Virus record (IMG/VR): IMGVR_UViG_3300017971_000107
Coordinates: 1 to 44,278 of that record
DNA from: a virus
DNA: 44,278 bases
Reading direction: 5' to 3' (one strand)
Below the pieces are notes generated by a model. The model was not told the DNA's origin, ran no database searches, and saw only the letters and a list, made by a program, of their open reading frames with translations. Positions 26,503 through 42,977 of the stretch are shown piece by piece. The stretch's first letter is position 1. Each line of letters begins with the position of its first letter. Made by a program: the position numbers and the translations under genes.

Positions 26503-26514
26503 ACCGAATGATTA

Positions 26515-26577
26515 GTATCGGGTGATACATCCTATTGACGGAAACTCCTTGCGTTGTGTTTGTTGTCCTGTTATATT
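26515..26577 (+). promoter_or_regulatory. Candidate sigma70-type promoter with palindrome, start of early region
   Basis: TTGCGT (26549-26554), a 17-base spacer and TATATT (26572-26577) form a plausible promoter before the HTH gene at 26610. A small palindrome, GTATC-GGGT-GATAC (26515-26528), lies just upstream and may bind a regulator. A TTGACG at 26535 is too far from the -10 to pair with it. Confidence 0.5.
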
Positions 26578-26609
26578 GAACGTGCAGCGAACAACGAAAG
26601 GGGCGAATA

Positions 26610-26837
26610 ATGGAACTCATGATTGATGGACGGAAGTACATCACGGCGAAGCAGGCGGCAAAGCTAGCTCGCGTTCATATCCAAACCATCTACCGATGGG
26701 CTCAGCAAGGGCTTATCGAATCCGAGAAGATCGCGGGAGTATATGGGCTCATGCTTCGCAAGATCGACGTCGAGCGGCTCGGGCGTGAGCCTTTCTCATC
26801 CGGTCGCCCGCGATCTCATGGAGCCAAGCGGAGCTAA
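26610..26837 (+). CDS. MerR/excisionase-type helix-turn-helix protein
   Basis: A 75-residue protein with a helix-turn-helix of the excisionase/HTH_17 type: KYITAKQAAKLARVHIQTIY then RWAQQGLIESEKI and a wing GVYGLMLRKIDVERL. First gene of the early region, behind its own promoter, so it may regulate the shift from early to late genes. No integrase is seen, so an excisionase role is not supported. The C-terminus is Arg/Ser-rich. Confidence 0.7.
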   Translation: MELMIDGRKYITAKQAAKLARVHIQTIYRWAQQGLIESEKIAGVYGLMLRKIDVERLGREPFSSGRPRSHGAKRS

Positions 26838-27024
26838 TCTCCGTGATTCGGCCCCCCTCTCTTGGGGCTGAACGGCGTAAACAGCGAAAATAATCCCTGT
26901 TTTTTGGGAAATCCGAGCGTTTCCGCCATTTTTGCGCGTTATATATCGGGGAATTTAACGCTAGTATAGTAGAGCGGGCAAGAGAACAGCCCGACGCAAA
27001 CAATCCAAAGAAGGAGACCGAGAC
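26838..27024 (+). promoter_or_regulatory. Noncoding regulatory stretch with two small inverted repeats
   Basis: This 187-base gap has AAACAG (26879-26884) paired with CTGTTT (26897-26902) and a T-run (26900-26905), a weak terminator-like hairpin, then GGAAA (26907-26911) paired with TTTCC (26920-26924). A -10-like TATAGT lies at 26965-26970 without a convincing -35. AAGGAG at 27010 serves the next gene. It may hold an operator and a promoter for the small genes that follow. Confidence 0.35.
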
Positions 27025-31308: not shown

Positions 31309-31601
31309 GCCTCACCATAGAGAAGAAGAGCGGCTCTTATTGGCTCTGCAAGGCATGCGACGCGTGCGGGAACGTGCACGAGCAACGGCTATGCTCTGCC
31401 GATCCGCAATCCACCTCCGAGCTCGTCTCCGCTCTCGCGGTGCATTATGCGATGGGCGGGCATCTCTTGAGCTTCCACAGAGCCAAAGAGCGGGTAGGCT
31501 GTATTTGCCCCGCATGCATTCGGAAGCATTCGGAGCTATCAATCAAAGCCGTCGCGGCTCTCGCGGCGGCGGCAGTAGGAAAGGAGGAATCCGGTGCGTG
31601 A
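31305..31601 (+). CDS. Small zinc-ribbon-like protein
   Basis: A 98-residue protein with two Cys pairs (CKACDACG near residue 15 and CICPAC near 66) and a His between, suggesting a zinc-binding ribbon. The C-terminus is an Ala-rich helix. It overlaps csrA upstream and the SNF2 gene downstream (GTG 31594), so the three form a coupled unit. Possible nucleic-acid-binding or partner role. Confidence 0.6.
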   Translation: MSLTIEKKSGSYWLCKACDACGNVHEQRLCSADPQSTSELVSALAVHYAMGGHLLSFHRAKERVGCICPACIRKHSELSIKAVAALAAAAVGKEESGA

Positions 31602-33204
31602 ATATCAAGAAACCCCTTTCAGCGATGAGGAAGCCGCCGCTCGGCAGGAAGCCGCCCCACAGCTTGATCTCCACGCGATGCTTGCCGAGCTTCGCGAGGA
31701 CCTCCCGAGCGGGGCTCCGCCCCCGCCGATCTCTCGCGGCGATTCTTGGGAGCATCAGAGAAACGCCTTCGCCTTCGCTCGCGATAAACGCGGGGCCATG
31801 CTCGCTATGGGAATGGGCACGGGCAAATCCAAGGTCGTGGTGGATCTCTTGCAGAATGATGAAGCCGCCGAACGGGTGCTTATCACCTGCCCGAAAGCCG
31901 TCATACCAACGTGGCCCTCGCAGTTCGCCCGATGGGCGAACTACGAGTGGAAAATCTGTTGCCTTGATAAGGGCACATCGAAGAAGAAGCAGGAAGCCGC
32001 CCGAGAGGCTCTCATATGGCAACGAGCGAATCGCGGGCGGCTCGCCATCGTCGTCAATTACGAGTCAGTATGGCGACCAGCGATCGCGAATATCCTCCGG
32101 GCGGTTCAATGGGATTGCATAGTCGCCGATGAATCACACAAGATCAAAGCTCCGGGCGGCAAGGCCAGTTTTTTTCTCGGGCGGCTCGCGAAGCAGGCTC
32201 GGCGGCGGCTCTGTTTGACTGGCACCCCGATCCCTCATTCGCCGATTGATATCTACCCTCAATACAGGTTCGCCGATCGGAGCGTTTTCGATACAACGGC
32301 TGCTGGCTTCCGGGCTCGCTATGCTATCCCCGATCCGGTCTATCCGAGCCGCATAATCAAGTGGATCAACCTTGACGATCTCCGTCGCCGCTTCCAGTCG
32401 ATCGCGTTCCAGTGCGCAACAGAAGACGTGCTCGATCTCCCCGAAGCAATCCACTCGGTTAAGCTATTCTCGCTCTCTCCGAAAGCCGCAAAGGCTTATG
32501 CTCAGCTTCACGCATCGCTTGAAGCTGAGTTCGAAGAAGGCAAGGTGACGCCAACGACGGCTCTTGTGCGGCTCCTCAGGATGCAGCAACTCACAAGCGG
32601 GTGGATCCGGCTTGACGACGCCGACGAACTAACGCCCGTCGATTCGGGCAAGCTGGAAGTGCTCGTTGAGCTCGCCGAAGATATCGAGCATAGCGAGCCG
32701 GTCGTTGTCTTCTGCCGCTTCCGCTCGGATATCGAGACCGTCAAGGAAGCCGCCCGCAAGAGCGGGCGAGCCTTCGGCGAGCTCTCGGGCTCCCGCTCCG
32801 ATATGGCGGGGAACATTCTCCCCGAGAGAATCCACGGCGAGACGGGCTATCTCTTCGCGGTCCAGATCCAAAGCGGGGGGGCCGGAATCGATCTCACGCG
32901 GTCCTGTTATTGTGTGTACTTCTCGGTCGGCTACTCGTTCGGGGACTATTCCCAATCGCTCGCCCGCATCCTTCGCCCCGGGCAAGAGCGGGCAGTCCGT
33001 TATTTTCATATCATGGCGAGCCGCACCATCGATGTGGATCTCTATCGGATGCTCAACCGCAAAGATGCGGCGATCTCCGAGCTCACGGGCCATCGGACCG
33101 CGAGCTCGCTTGACCACATCCTGACCAATGTCGTTCGCCCGCCGTCTCCGAAGGAGGTAATCCGCCGCATGGAAACGGGAGTTTCGATGGACTTCCGAGA
33201 ATAG
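31594..33204 (+). CDS. SNF2-family DNA translocase/helicase
   Basis: A 536-residue protein with superfamily 2 motifs: Q-like WEHQRNAFAF, motif I GMGTGKSK (about 74-81), motif II DESH (about 179-182), motif III LCLTGTPIPHSPID, motif V QIQSGGAGIDL and motif VI QSLARILRPGQ. Such phage helicases act in replication, recombination or displacement of proteins from DNA. Start is GTG 31594 overlapping the zinc-ribbon gene. About 45 N-terminal residues are acidic and probably disordered. No nuclease domain is fused. Confidence 0.88.
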   Translation: MREYQETPFSDEEAAARQEAAPQLDLHAMLAELREDLPSGAPPPPISRGDSWEHQRNAFAFARDKRGAMLAMGMGTGKSKVVVDLLQNDEAAERVLITCPKAVIPTWPSQFARWANYEWKICCLDKGTSKKKQEAAREALIWQRANRGRLAIVVNYESVWRPAIANILRAVQWDCIVADESHKIKAPGGKASFFLGRLAKQARRRLCLTGTPIPHSPIDIYPQYRFADRSVFDTTAAGFRARYAIPDPVYPSRIIKWINLDDLRRRFQSIAFQCATEDVLDLPEAIHSVKLFSLSPKAAKAYAQLHASLEAEFEEGKVTPTTALVRLLRMQQLTSGWIRLDDADELTPVDSGKLEVLVELAEDIEHSEPVVVFCRFRSDIETVKEAARKSGRAFGELSGSRSDMAGNILPERIHGETGYLFAVQIQSGGAGIDLTRSCYCVYFSVGYSFGDYSQSLARILRPGQERAVRYFHIMASRTIDVDLYRMLNRKDAAISELTGHRTASSLDHILTNVVRPPSPKEVIRRMETGVSMDFRE

Positions 33205-33757: not shown

Positions 33758-34258
33758 ATGGAAAAAACGAAACCCGAAGCCGCCGAAGCGGCGACCGATC
33801 TCGAATCGCTCGACGATACCTTCGCAGGGATGAGCGACGGAATTGAGCCGCCCGATCCTCTCAAGCTCGCGGGCGAGATTGCCGATCTTGATACTGAGAT
33901 CGCCGAGCTCAATGGCAGGGCGGAAGCGAAGAGCAAGGAGCGGGAGTCGCTCGCCGAGCTCTTGCTTGAGCTCATGGGCGAGAGCGGCACGCAGCGGCTC
34001 AATATCAACGGGCGGACGATCTATATCCACCGCGAGCTTTGGGCGAGCGTTCCCGCCGCGAACGTTGGCGACTTCCTTGCTCTGCCCGGATGCTCGGAGC
34101 TCGGAAAAACGACGATCAATTCCCAAACCGCGAGCGCTCACATCCGAGAGCTCGCACGCACCGAGGAAGGGGACTACGATATCGAGAAAATTCCGGCTCA
34201 ATTCCGCGAGCTCGCGAAAGTCTCGATGAAGGTCTCTCTCCGAAGCCGAAAGGATTAA
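33758..34258 (+). CDS. Phage coiled-coil protein with conserved beta hairpin
   Basis: A 166-residue protein. Residues 35-75 form an acidic coiled coil (AGEIADLDTEIAELNGRAEA) before LNINGRTIYIHRELWASVP, a pattern I recall from replication-region proteins of other phages (a beta hairpin with conserved His-Arg-x-Leu-Trp-Ala). The C-terminus (SAHIRELARTEEGDYDI) is helical. ACAAGGAGA precedes ATG 33758. The function of this group is unknown to me. Confidence 0.55.
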   Translation: MEKTKPEAAEAATDLESLDDTFAGMSDGIEPPDPLKLAGEIADLDTEIAELNGRAEAKSKERESLAELLLELMGESGTQRLNINGRTIYIHRELWASVPAANVGDFLALPGCSELGKTTINSQTASAHIRELARTEEGDYDIEKIPAQFRELAKVSMKVSLRSRKD

Positions 34259-39403: not shown

Positions 39404-41080
39404 ATGGAAACAATCAACGCAGCGATGAAGTATGCCGCGATAGGCTGGAAGATCGTCCAGCTTTACGGCATTGGAGCCGATGGCAAATGCACTTGCGGGC
39501 GAGCTCATGACGAGCGGTCCGCCGGCAAGCATCCGGTCGGCAAAGGTTGGGCGAGCTCAGCGACGAGCGACGAGGAAACAATCTCGGAGTGGCCCGAGCT
39601 CGCGAATATCGGGCTCCTTCTCGGGCCTGACTCGGGCGTGATCGATGTGGAGTTTGATTGCGAAGAGGGGCGGCTCACAGCCGAAGAGCTCTTCGCTGGC
39701 ATCATTACTCCGACCTATCAATCGGGGCGGTCTATTCATCGACTATTTCGATGGACTGAAAGCCTTCCACCCGTTCAAAAGATGGAGATCCGAGGGCTTG
39801 AGGTGCGGATCGGAGGCGCTGGCAAATCGACACAGAGCGTCCTTCCGCCGTCAAGGCATTATAGCGGGCGGGAGTATCGTTGGCTCGCGGGGCTCTCGCC
39901 CGATGATTGCGATCCGATCGAGATCCCCGCAGCCCTCGCGGAGCTCATGGGCGTTCAGAAGCCCGCAGCGGGGGCTCAAGGGCTCCCCGGGTCGCTCCCT
40001 CCTTCGCAGCCCGAGCAAGGCGAATGCTCGCGAGGGCGAGCCATTCTCGAAGCCGATGCAGTGCGGGAGGGAGAAAGGAACGATATCCTTTTCGCCTTCG
40101 CTTGCCGCGAGGTCAACTTCCGCAATATTGCGAACTCGGATGCCCGGGCGGATCTTCTGGAAATAGTGCTCGGGATGAATGCCCTCCGATGCTCGCCCCC
40201 GCTCGATAGGAGCGAGGTCGAACAGATCGTCGCGTCAGCATGCCGCATTGCCCGAGAGGGCGGCTCCCCGCCCCCTCAAGCTCTCCCGAGCCCTCCGAGC
40301 GGCGAAGGCTCTCAGATGGGCTCTCCGGGCGTCTCAGGGGCTCCGCGACTGAAGGGCGGGGACGGCTGGCATTCATGCCCGCCGCAGCGGCGACACTACC
40401 TTGAGCACGGGCTCGCCTACGGTCCCGATCCCGAGGACGGGCAGGGCTTCGGATGGCATCCGGGCGACTGGCAATTGACTGTAGTCAAGAGCGATCCGGT
40501 CGCCTATGTTCTCACGGTCCCCGCTTGGATCAATCACGTCGCGAACGATCGCGGCGACATCCACTTGACTCTGGAACAGTTCACGAAGGCCGATAAAATG
40601 GCGGAAGCTGTTCTCTCGGCAACAAAGGTCGTCCTCCTAAGCGATCGCCCGCGAGCTTGGTCGGCGGTCTGGAACGGCGAGCAAGGGCGGAAGGGGCTCA
40701 AGGCTCGGCTCATGGACGAGCGGCAGGAAGCCGAGCCCGACATCGATCAGGTCGAAGGATTGGTGCTTATTCAGCATTTTCTAACTCGGCTCGACAATGC
40801 CCCCGAGACGGAGGACGACCGCCCCGCTTCGAGCGGCGAGCCCGTCAAGCTCTCGGATGGCTCGATCGCTTTCGCTTGGGTCAAGCTGTTTCGAGCTCTC
40901 ATCGACCAGGGGCAGTTCACCGAGCCGAACATTCGTTCGGCAAAATCTCGCATCTTCGCTATCCCGAAACGGCAAACTAGGCAATATCAGATAGATGGGG
41001 TGCGGCTCAATATCACGAAGGTCTCGCCCGATGATATTGCCCGTATTCGGAAGATGTATGCGATGCGGAAAGATAGCTAA
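39404..41080 (+). CDS. Bifunctional DNA primase/polymerase (Prim-Pol) with PriCT-like domain
   Basis: A 558-residue protein. The N-terminal AEP-type Prim-Pol domain (1-190) shows GWKIVQLY, GKHPVGKGW, WPELANIGLLLGPDSGVIDV followed by EFDCEEG (metal-binding acidic residues), and VLPPSRHYSGREYRW. A PriCT-type helical domain follows near 210-285 (ERNDILFAFACREVNF). The C-terminus (290-558) is unassigned, with no helicase P-loop. It primes and may copy phage DNA. Possibly the only polymerase of the phage. Start ATG 39404, with GGGGAC upstream as a weak RBS. Confidence 0.82.
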   Translation: METINAAMKYAAIGWKIVQLYGIGADGKCTCGRAHDERSAGKHPVGKGWASSATSDEETISEWPELANIGLLLGPDSGVIDVEFDCEEGRLTAEELFAGIITPTYQSGRSIHRLFRWTESLPPVQKMEIRGLEVRIGGAGKSTQSVLPPSRHYSGREYRWLAGLSPDDCDPIEIPAALAELMGVQKPAAGAQGLPGSLPPSQPEQGECSRGRAILEADAVREGERNDILFAFACREVNFRNIANSDARADLLEIVLGMNALRCSPPLDRSEVEQIVASACRIAREGGSPPPQALPSPPSGEGSQMGSPGVSGAPRLKGGDGWHSCPPQRRHYLEHGLAYGPDPEDGQGFGWHPGDWQLTVVKSDPVAYVLTVPAWINHVANDRGDIHLTLEQFTKADKMAEAVLSATKVVLLSDRPRAWSAVWNGEQGRKGLKARLMDERQEAEPDIDQVEGLVLIQHFLTRLDNAPETEDDRPASSGEPVKLSDGSIAFAWVKLFRALIDQGQFTEPNIRSAKSRIFAIPKRQTRQYQIDGVRLNITKVSPDDIARIRKMYAMRKDS

Positions 41081-41100
41081 GGTTTTTCACCAAAAATGGC

Positions 41101-41298
41101 GGATATGTATAGGAGAAACTTCTTTCGCTTTTTTCAAATCGTGATAGTTGTTAGCATTAGAGAGGTTTGAGTCTTGAAAAGCAAGGAGAAGAAGAGACCT
41201 AGCTTCAGGATTGAACAGGTAGCAGGGTAGCATTTAGAAGAAATGAGTCTAACACTGCTGCGACTTGAAAAGCGAAAGCAGATTCTCCTATACGTTTC
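41101..41298. other. AT-rich, inverted-repeat-bounded structured element (unknown)
   Basis: A noncoding stretch between the Prim-Pol and UvrD-like genes. TATAGGAGAA (41108-41117) pairs perfectly with TTCTCCTATA (41283-41292), and CTTTCGCTTTT (41122-41132) with AAAAGCGAAAG (41268-41278), with C-G and T-A pairs inside the short internal loop and further partial pairing outside, including a T-G wobble. Inside, AGTTGTTAG (41146-41154) can pair with CTAACACT (41250-41257). I count 72 G/C in 41101-41280 (40 percent), far below the rest. No ORF with a convincing start fills it. It may be a structured RNA, a replication origin or a MITE-like insertion. Confidence 0.7.
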
Positions 41299-41342
41299 TT
41301 GGAAAATTCCAGAAATCGAACAACTGTTCGGGGGGTATGCCG

Positions 41343-42977
41343 ATGGAGATAGCACGATTGATAGGAGGGGCGGGCACTGGCAAGACTTCGGAGCTCTTGC
41401 GGCTCATGGCCCGAGTGATTGAGCGAGGGATCGAGCCGAGAGAGATCGGCTTCGTCTCCTTCACGCGGGCGGCTCGCCGAGAAGCCGCCGAGCGAGCGAG
41501 CGAGCAATTCGGATGCACCGTCAAGGAGCTTGAGCAATACGGTTGGTTCCGAACGCTTCACTCAGTCTGTTACCGATGCCTTGAGATTAAATCGAAGGAG
41601 CTCCTTTCGGGCGATAAAGAGTCGCTCGAATGGCTAACGGATGCCATCGGCGAGAAAGCATCATTCGTCGAAGGAGACGGCGATCGCGAAGCGAAGCTCG
41701 GCTCGACCGCCGACTTGGCTCTCTTTATTTGGCATGCCGCCCGAGCTCGCCTTGAGCCGCTCGAAGCTGCATATGAGCGGATGAGCCGGGCGAACTCCGA
41801 GCTCCCGCCGCTCGGCTATTGTCGGACTATCGCCGAGCGATTCGAGCTCGCTAAGCGGCTTGACGGAAGGTGTGACTTTTCCGATCTTCTCTCCCGCTTC
41901 GCGGGGCTCCGCTTCGGTGCCGACCTTTCGCTCGCCGAAACGGAGCCGGAAGGTTTCGTCCCCGGGCTCCCCGTCTGGTTCTTCGACGAGCAACAGGACA
42001 CGTCGCCGCTTCTCGATCGCGTTTGTCGCCGCCTGATTGGCTCGCCAAAGGTCAAGTGGGTTTATGTTGCGGGCGATCCGTTCCAATCGATCTACGGTTG
42101 GGCGGGCTCGGATGCCGCTTGCTTCATGGCGTGGGATGCCGAGCACGAAAAGATCATGAAGAAGTCGTGGCGATGCGGCGGGGAGATCCTCTCGCTCGGC
42201 GAGAAGTGCATCGAGAAGAGCTCGGATTATTTCGACCGCGAGATCGCTCCCGCAGATCGAGCGGCGAGCGTTCAGCGGCTCGGCTCGCTCGAAGCTGCTT
42301 TGACCGAAGTCGACCCCGAGAGCGACTGGCTTCTGATTGCCCGCACTAACTGGGAAGCCCGCCGATGGCAACGGCTGCTATCCGAGCGAGAGTATCCCTG
42401 GACCGCGACGAAGGGCAACGGGGCATGGCTCGCCCGCTCAAAGGTCGATGCAATGCACGGGCTTCTCTGCCTCTCTTCCGGTATGACTGCCGACGCTCAT
42501 GAGGTCAAGCGGATCTTCGAGAGCATCCCGTCGAAGTGCTCCAAGGGCGAGCTTCTCAAAAGAGGCTCGAAGACCAAAGCAAAAAAGCGGGAGCAATGGC
42601 CCGATGAGATTCCGCTCGGGCTCTTCGGCTCCTATGGGGCGACGCCCCTGCTTCTTTCGATGATACAGAGCGGCGAGTGGACGACGCTCATCGAGCGGGG
42701 AGCCGAGTTCATGCGAGTGATCAATCGGCATGGCCCGCTCGTCGCTCTCGATCCTCGCATTAAGGTCGGCACAATCCACTCCGTCAAAGGAGCCGAAGCT
42801 GAGAGCGTTGCTATCAATCTCGGGGCGTCCTATCCGATCGCCCGAGCTCGGGACTTGTGCCCCGATGCTCGGGACGAAGAACGGCGAGTGGCCTACGTTG
42901 GGGTCACAAGAGCCAAGAGCCGCTTGGTTCTCGCCAGCAATCCGCACTGCCGCTTCCAAATGAAACCAGGAGATTGA
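41343..42977 (+). CDS. UvrD/PcrA-like superfamily 1 helicase
   Basis: A 544-residue protein with Walker A GGAGTGKT (residues 8-15), motif Ia FVSFTRAARREAAER, Walker B-like FFDEQQDTSP (about 213), motif III GDPFQSIYGWAGSD, motif V GTIHSVKGAEAESVAI and motif VI RRVAYVGVTRAKSRL. It unwinds DNA 3-prime to 5-prime in replication or repair. A GGGGGG run at 41330-41335 fits ATG 41343, and ATG 41337 is an alternative; the frame stays open upstream into the structured element, but those starts are not credible. At 544 residues it is shorter than full UvrD. Confidence 0.85.
   Translation: MEIARLIGGAGTGKTSELLRLMARVIERGIEPREIGFVSFTRAARREAAERASEQFGCTVKELEQYGWFRTLHSVCYRCLEIKSKELLSGDKESLEWLTDAIGEKASFVEGDGDREAKLGSTADLALFIWHAARARLEPLEAAYERMSRANSELPPLGYCRTIAERFELAKRLDGRCDFSDLLSRFAGLRFGADLSLAETEPEGFVPGLPVWFFDEQQDTSPLLDRVCRRLIGSPKVKWVYVAGDPFQSIYGWAGSDAACFMAWDAEHEKIMKKSWRCGGEILSLGEKCIEKSSDYFDREIAPADRAASVQRLGSLEAALTEVDPESDWLLIARTNWEARRWQRLLSEREYPWTATKGNGAWLARSKVDAMHGLLCLSSGMTADAHEVKRIFESIPSKCSKGELLKRGSKTKAKKREQWPDEIPLGLFGSYGATPLLLSMIQSGEWTTLIERGAEFMRVINRHGPLVALDPRIKVGTIHSVKGAEAESVAINLGASYPIARARDLCPDARDEERRVAYVGVTRAKSRLVLASNPHCRFQMKPGD

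Follow-up and report, generated by a model that had tools for sequence, protein, structure and literature searches.

The window analyzed here is a 44,278-nucleotide stretch of viral DNA (positions 1 to 44,278 of IMG/VR virus record IMGVR_UViG_3300017971_000107), and the element in question is a 185-bp inverted-repeat structure (41108-41292) within the 262-bp gap that separates a Prim-Pol gene from a UvrD/Rep-type helicase gene. The gap is unique, AT-rich and non-coding, and carries a dyad and short repeats; across a family of related loci its position is kept and its sequence depends on the lineage. The location between these two genes, the AT-richness and the presence of perfect 10- and 11-bp arms had been pointed out in a preliminary description made from the sequence alone, and all of these were borne out. 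Both pairs of arms are exact reverse complements and belong to a single 31-nt inverted repeat (41102-41132/41268-41298), the arms of which are 87% complementary, with the mismatches TT, TG, AA, and TC, and enclose an interior of 135 nt.

The 185 bp contain 73 G/C (39.5%), compared with 41.2% for the whole gap and 58.9% for the contig. The best inverted repeat of the gap scored 23, a value reached by 0 of 100 dinucleotide shuffles (z-score 13), and elsewhere in the contig no score exceeded 16 (coarse scan in 131-base steps, the element itself not being enclosed). It had also been claimed that no convincing open reading frame (ORF) lies inside the element, and this stands: an in-frame TTG start is available at 41265, but alignment of homologues supports ATG 41343 as the first codon of UvrD. 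The left arm begins at 41102, past the Prim-Pol stop at 41080.

The gap in related loci

The relatives comprise 62 loci with substantial UvrD matches, obtained by scanning viral contigs four times with UvrD queries; a search with the Prim-Pol alone found none, and no close relatives for covariation of the window's own element were found. The nearest annotated phages have at most 28% identity by UvrD. A Prim-Pol gene lies upstream of UvrD in 59 of the 62 loci (it was undetected there in L083, L094, and L095), with a separating gap of 79 to 1144 bp which is richer in AT than its locus in nearly all relatives, one exception being the longest gap (L088). Repeat statistics were based on 42 non-redundant gaps, with L088 and L060 excluded. 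The best inverted repeat reached p ≤ 0.05 in 26 of the 42 gaps, with a mean z of 2.8, compared with 7.6% and 0.39 in 210 control windows taken from these loci.

The motifs found in the gap differ between lineages. Gaps of group a contain GTGGTTTT repeats and also a hairpin with CCACAAA after it, those of group b contain GTGGACC..GGCCCACAAA, those of group c (L038, L039, and L058) contain TTCACT repeats and those of group d contain GGTTTTCCCGGCA..TGCCGGGAAAACC, while the gap of L064 has ACTCA-type repeats. In the Prim-Pol tree, motif groups a, b, and d each form one clade, and the window sits on a long branch of unsure placement, outside the clade of group c. The following enrichment ratios are inflated because the motifs were selected, by eye, after the gaps had been read: the group d motif occurs 42 times in 3.4 kb of gap vs. 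8 times in 140 kb outside (12.2 vs. 0.057 per kb), the group a motif 14 times in gaps vs. 0 in 73 kb outside, TTCACT of group c 15 times in 1.1 kb of gap vs. 13 times in 25 kb outside (14 vs. 0.53 per kb) and TTGAAAA of the window at 11.5 per kb in the gap vs. 0.068 per kb outside, with a weaker contrast in L064 alone (18 vs. 5 per kb). The repetition may be of the iteron type, with three TTGAAAA copies in the gap of the window, and is clearer in the relatives with TTCACT or GTGGTTTT. The exact group d dyad was found in two viral contigs only, with one copy in each, these being the records of L078 and L079.

Compensatory changes were observed in groups a and d, where both sides of the dyad are altered together in some sequences, as would be expected if the dyad is recognized by a protein or forms a hairpin, whether in DNA or in RNA. 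A lack of conserved pairing or of compensatory change among relatives had been named in the preliminary description as counting against its reading; dyads with such changes do recur in them, but as lineage-specific DNA dyads and not as one RNA fold.

A second feature common to several lineages is a TATAGG or TATATGG box, which was found near the Prim-Pol stop in 13 of the 42 gaps and in inverse form near UvrD in 7 of them. Box density is 3.4 per kb in gaps vs. 0.125 per kb outside, and 26 occurrences were counted in the gaps vs. 4.6 in shuffled gaps. The window, L038, L039, L064, and L091 each have an end-to-end repeat that reaches p ≤ 0.05 and carries TATA-type boxes, the outer distances ranging from 183 to 221 bp (L058 has a shorter end-to-end repeat which is not significant). 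On the strength of these shared repeats and distances, the 185-bp element of the window is, as judged by sequence, one instance of a recurring architecture. Since the window lies outside the group-c clade, its boxes, which groups c and d also have, are either ancient or independently gained.

Individual observations were also made in the relatives. The 1144-bp gap of L088 (2357-3500), which is not AT-rich, holds many GCGCAAACG-like repeats and has an iteron-like look, and in the 307-bp gap of L060 (3194-3500) inverted repeats of the GTGCGCG type are very strong. The Prim-Pol–UvrD gap, otherwise non-coding, contains a gene with T5orf172/MUG113 domains in L006 (2449-2985) and also in L009. In L010/L011 (3501-6041), some 300 residues are inserted into UvrD between GDPFQ and SIYG; the insert has intein-like ends (C..N-S), and its Pfam Intein_splicing match is weak and falls short of the cut-off.

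Coordinates and gene neighborhood

Features of the Prim-Pol–UvrD intergenic gap and its flanking genes (window coordinates)
Feature	Position	Strand	Remarks
Non-coding AT-rich gap, putative origin region	41081..41342		41.2% G+C vs. 58.9% in contig; 59/62 relatives with a gap there
Bounding 31-nt inverted repeat, left arm	41102..41132	+	z 13 vs. dinucleotide shuffles of gap
Bounding 31-nt inverted repeat, right arm	41268..41298	-	
Left TATAGGAGAA box	41108..41117	+	TATAGG boxes recur past the Prim-Pol stop in relatives
Right box, inverted copy (TTCTCCTATA)	41283..41292	-	
TTGAAAA motif, inverted copy	41131..41137	-	3 copies within the gap (262 bp), 3 in the remaining 44 kb
TTGAAAA motif, direct copy	41174..41180	+	Within 15-nt direct repeat 41168-41182/41259-41273
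TTGAAAA motif, direct copy	41265..41271	+	Overlaps right arm
Prim-Pol gene, 558 amino acids, Prim-Pol and PriCT_1	39404..41080	+	Pfam PF09250 E 7.6e-21, PF08708 E 2e-5
GGGGGG, probable UvrD ribosome-binding site, outside arms	41330..41335	+	Read from sequence
UvrD/Rep-type helicase gene	41343..42977	+	PF00580 E 1.2e-24, phrog_1967 E 1.3e-53; start backed by homologues

At 41296-41331, just 5' of the probable ribosome-binding site of UvrD, TTGGAAAATTCC and CGAACAACTGTTCG resemble two small hairpins. A tRNA and a transfer-messenger RNA (tmRNA) were rejected as candidates, as was a retron RNA, reverse transcriptase PF00078 not being found in the contig (positive controls worked).

The main genes of the contig are all on one strand and, because of this, GC skew is uninformative here. 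An SNF2-type helicase is encoded at 31594-33204, and the terminase is found at the opposite end of the contig (1326-2783). A profile search of the Prim-Pol against solved structures gave no match. The C-terminal part of this protein was modeled by AlphaFold2 with fair confidence (mean predicted local distance difference test score of 84), and the order of helices and strands in the model fits a winged helix. Foldseek matches to winged-helix proteins are weak (E about 0.03-0.1, best PDB match E 0.03), and the top viral match is another phage Prim-Pol.

Elsewhere in the window, a stretch of lower G+C content with small ORFs and promoter-like sequences lies between the structural and replication halves (26503-27020). 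The sequence GAGCTC occurs 91 times in the contig vs. about 31 expected, an excess that may stem from codon pairs or from a preference of the host. A protein with a Pam3 gp33-like domain (DUF7307, E 7e-13) is encoded at 33758-34255; together with the weak similarity of UvrD to that of Pseudanabaena phage Pan1, it hints at a cyanobacterial host.

A putative replication origin and its alternatives

The element is probably the core of the phage replication origin, placed directly 3' of the Prim-Pol gene, and a probability of about 60% is given to this reading, which draws on analogy with known replicons. A replication origin had been listed among the alternatives in the preliminary description, and it is the one favored by the comparison with some sixty relatives. 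By the same analogy, we infer a course of initiation in which the Prim-Pol would bind the repeated motifs and the dyad, perhaps via its C-terminal domain, the AT-rich interior would open or extrude as a stem-loop, primers would be made by the Prim-Pol on the exposed strand, and the adjacent UvrD helicase would widen the bubble, possibly with the SNF2-type helicase. It is more tentatively suggested that the gap represents a widespread class of origin for Prim-Pols which lack a helicase domain, consisting of an AT-rich, dyad-bearing gap before a separate UvrD, bounded by TATAGG boxes in several lineages, and with a binding motif that diverges along with the Prim-Pol lineage.

Several observations weigh against an origin. 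The choice of motifs by eye means that their enrichment is overstated, a significant inverted repeat is lacking from some gaps (L007, L008, L049, and L052), and the closest UvrD relatives of the window have at most 48% identity. In phage Pan1 the corresponding genes for primase and helicase overlap, leaving no gap, and an origin in this phage would have to be elsewhere. The Prim-Pol of the window, in which Pfam detects Prim-Pol and PriCT_1 only, has no superfamily 3 (SF3) helicase domain, unlike that of plasmid pRN1 (see below), and its C-terminal part, which is possibly a winged helix, has only weak structure matches.

The gap is situated immediately 5' of UvrD, and an operator or promoter of the UvrD operon was considered, in which case the dyads and boxes would be bound by a repressor or an activator of the phage, or would form a promoter, and would play no role in replication initiation. 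Protein-binding dyads would account for the compensatory changes without an RNA, and in L066, L090, and L091 the helicase gene begins about 8-11 bp past the end of the right box. However, no sigma-70-like site was reported for the gap, few TATAGG boxes occur in other parts of the loci and, with the main genes all on one strand, there is no obvious need for a dedicated operator serving a single downstream gene. A phage-type TATAGG promoter was not helped by a search of ten records for a single-subunit RNA polymerase, in which none was found, a weak negative as the control was also empty. This explanation is regarded as rather unlikely.

A structured RNA with a long stem that pairs its two ends, such as a UvrD leader or a regulatory or small RNA, was the preference of the preliminary description and is now considered unlikely. 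The element folds better than its shuffles on both strands (z -6.3 on the plus strand, z -5.5 on the minus strand), with the lower energy on the plus strand, but this signal is attributed to the arms because the interior alone (41139-41265, plus strand) folds like shuffled sequence (z -1.0); the nested inner pairing described earlier is correspondingly weak, and nothing is folded beyond the arms. The statement that no known RNA family matches was upheld by Rfam, which gave no match at either threshold, and no fold is common to the different lineages. If the pairing operated in RNA, changes on one side only would be expected to produce G-U pairs on the transcribed strand at a higher frequency than A-C mismatches. 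G-T mismatches outnumber A-C in group a (10 vs. 4), but not in the best repeats of the 42 gaps (11 vs. 15) nor in the aligned group d stem (6 vs. 9), these count sets being small and overlapping. Taken overall, the counts from these sequences do not show the pattern of an RNA, which is possible for group a. The right arm also appears, as read from the sequence, to overlap the likely ribosome-binding site in L038 and L039, whereas in the window this site is outside the arms.

The remaining explanations concern other kinds of DNA element. An insertion resembling a miniature inverted-repeat transposable element (MITE), IS630-like with TA-ended arms, had been named as an alternative and would fit the 31-nt terminal inverted repeats, the TATA near both ends, the length of 185 bp, the AT-richness and the lack of an ORF. 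It is nearly refuted: the contig has no second copy, phage and plasmid records gave no match of notable length, the exact arm pattern has no match in viral contigs, and the relatives have a gap at the same position with unrelated sequence. A search of bacterial and archaeal genomes found 21 stretches matching one arm, none of them with the other arm nearby. Another DNA-level site, for packaging, resolution or recombination, that merely happens to be in the replication module would agree with a dyad-rich locus which is unique in each genome, but the terminase is at the far end of the contig and the adjacency to Prim-Pol is conserved, which makes such a site very improbable.

Comparison with known replication origins

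Very few origins of Prim-Pol-dependent replicons have been studied experimentally, and the mode of replication of one of these, pRN1, is disputed (rolling circle or not). No description of the present element was found in the open-licence papers searched. If it is an origin, the set of some sixty phages, in which the element occupies the same place and the motifs vary with the primase, could be used to find the sequence which the Prim-Pol recognizes and to ask by what means DNA is opened by a Prim-Pol that lacks an SF3 helicase, and the element could serve as a landmark for origins in uncultured phages.

By analogy, the closest experimentally studied precedent is the Sulfolobus plasmid pRN1, in which a stem-loop of 100 bp follows the Prim-Pol gene orf904 and is required for replication (PMC4234260, PMC3869888). 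The pRN1 stem-loop is not conserved in sequence among related plasmids, is functional when moved, and belongs to an origin stated to be without iterons (PMC4234260). The similarities are a non-coding region directly 3' of the Prim-Pol gene, a large stem with a long interior (a 21-nt stem and 58-nt loop in pRN1, 31-nt arms and a 135-nt interior here) and a potential for stem formation that is kept while the sequence changes, as indicated by the significant repeats in 26 of the 42 gaps and the compensatory changes in groups a and d. Unlike pRN1, the phage has repeated motifs and TATAGG boxes, and its Prim-Pol is without an SF3 helicase and is followed by a separate UvrD. The element is described as working like the pRN1 origin rather than as a member of the pRN1 type, because the SF3 helicase domain on which membership depends is absent.

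A similar stem-loop 3' of a primase-type replication gene has been predicted in Bordetella phage BIP-1/BPP-1 and proposed as an origin (PMC4234260). The likeness to this phage concerns the published description; only one phage group is described and, unlike here, the BIP-1 replication protein has an SF3 helicase. In the Staphylococcus aureus pathogenicity islands (SaPI) and the staphylococcal cassette chromosome mec (SCCmec), the origin is also in the intergenic region directly 3' of the replication gene (rep/cch2) and contains direct and inverted repeats, and SCCmec encodes a primase-polymerase in the same operon (PMC7581432). Their initiator helicase binds short iterons, whereas no helicase-initiator is evident in the window. 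Phage Pan1 has the same order of a primase gene and a UvrD-type helicase gene, with a superfamily 2 helicase a few genes upstream, but has no intergenic element between the two genes. The arrangement as such, in which a Prim-Pol gene has a stem-loop or iteron origin next to it, is a known one, and what distinguishes the present locus is the separate UvrD helicase and the TATAGG boxes that face each other.
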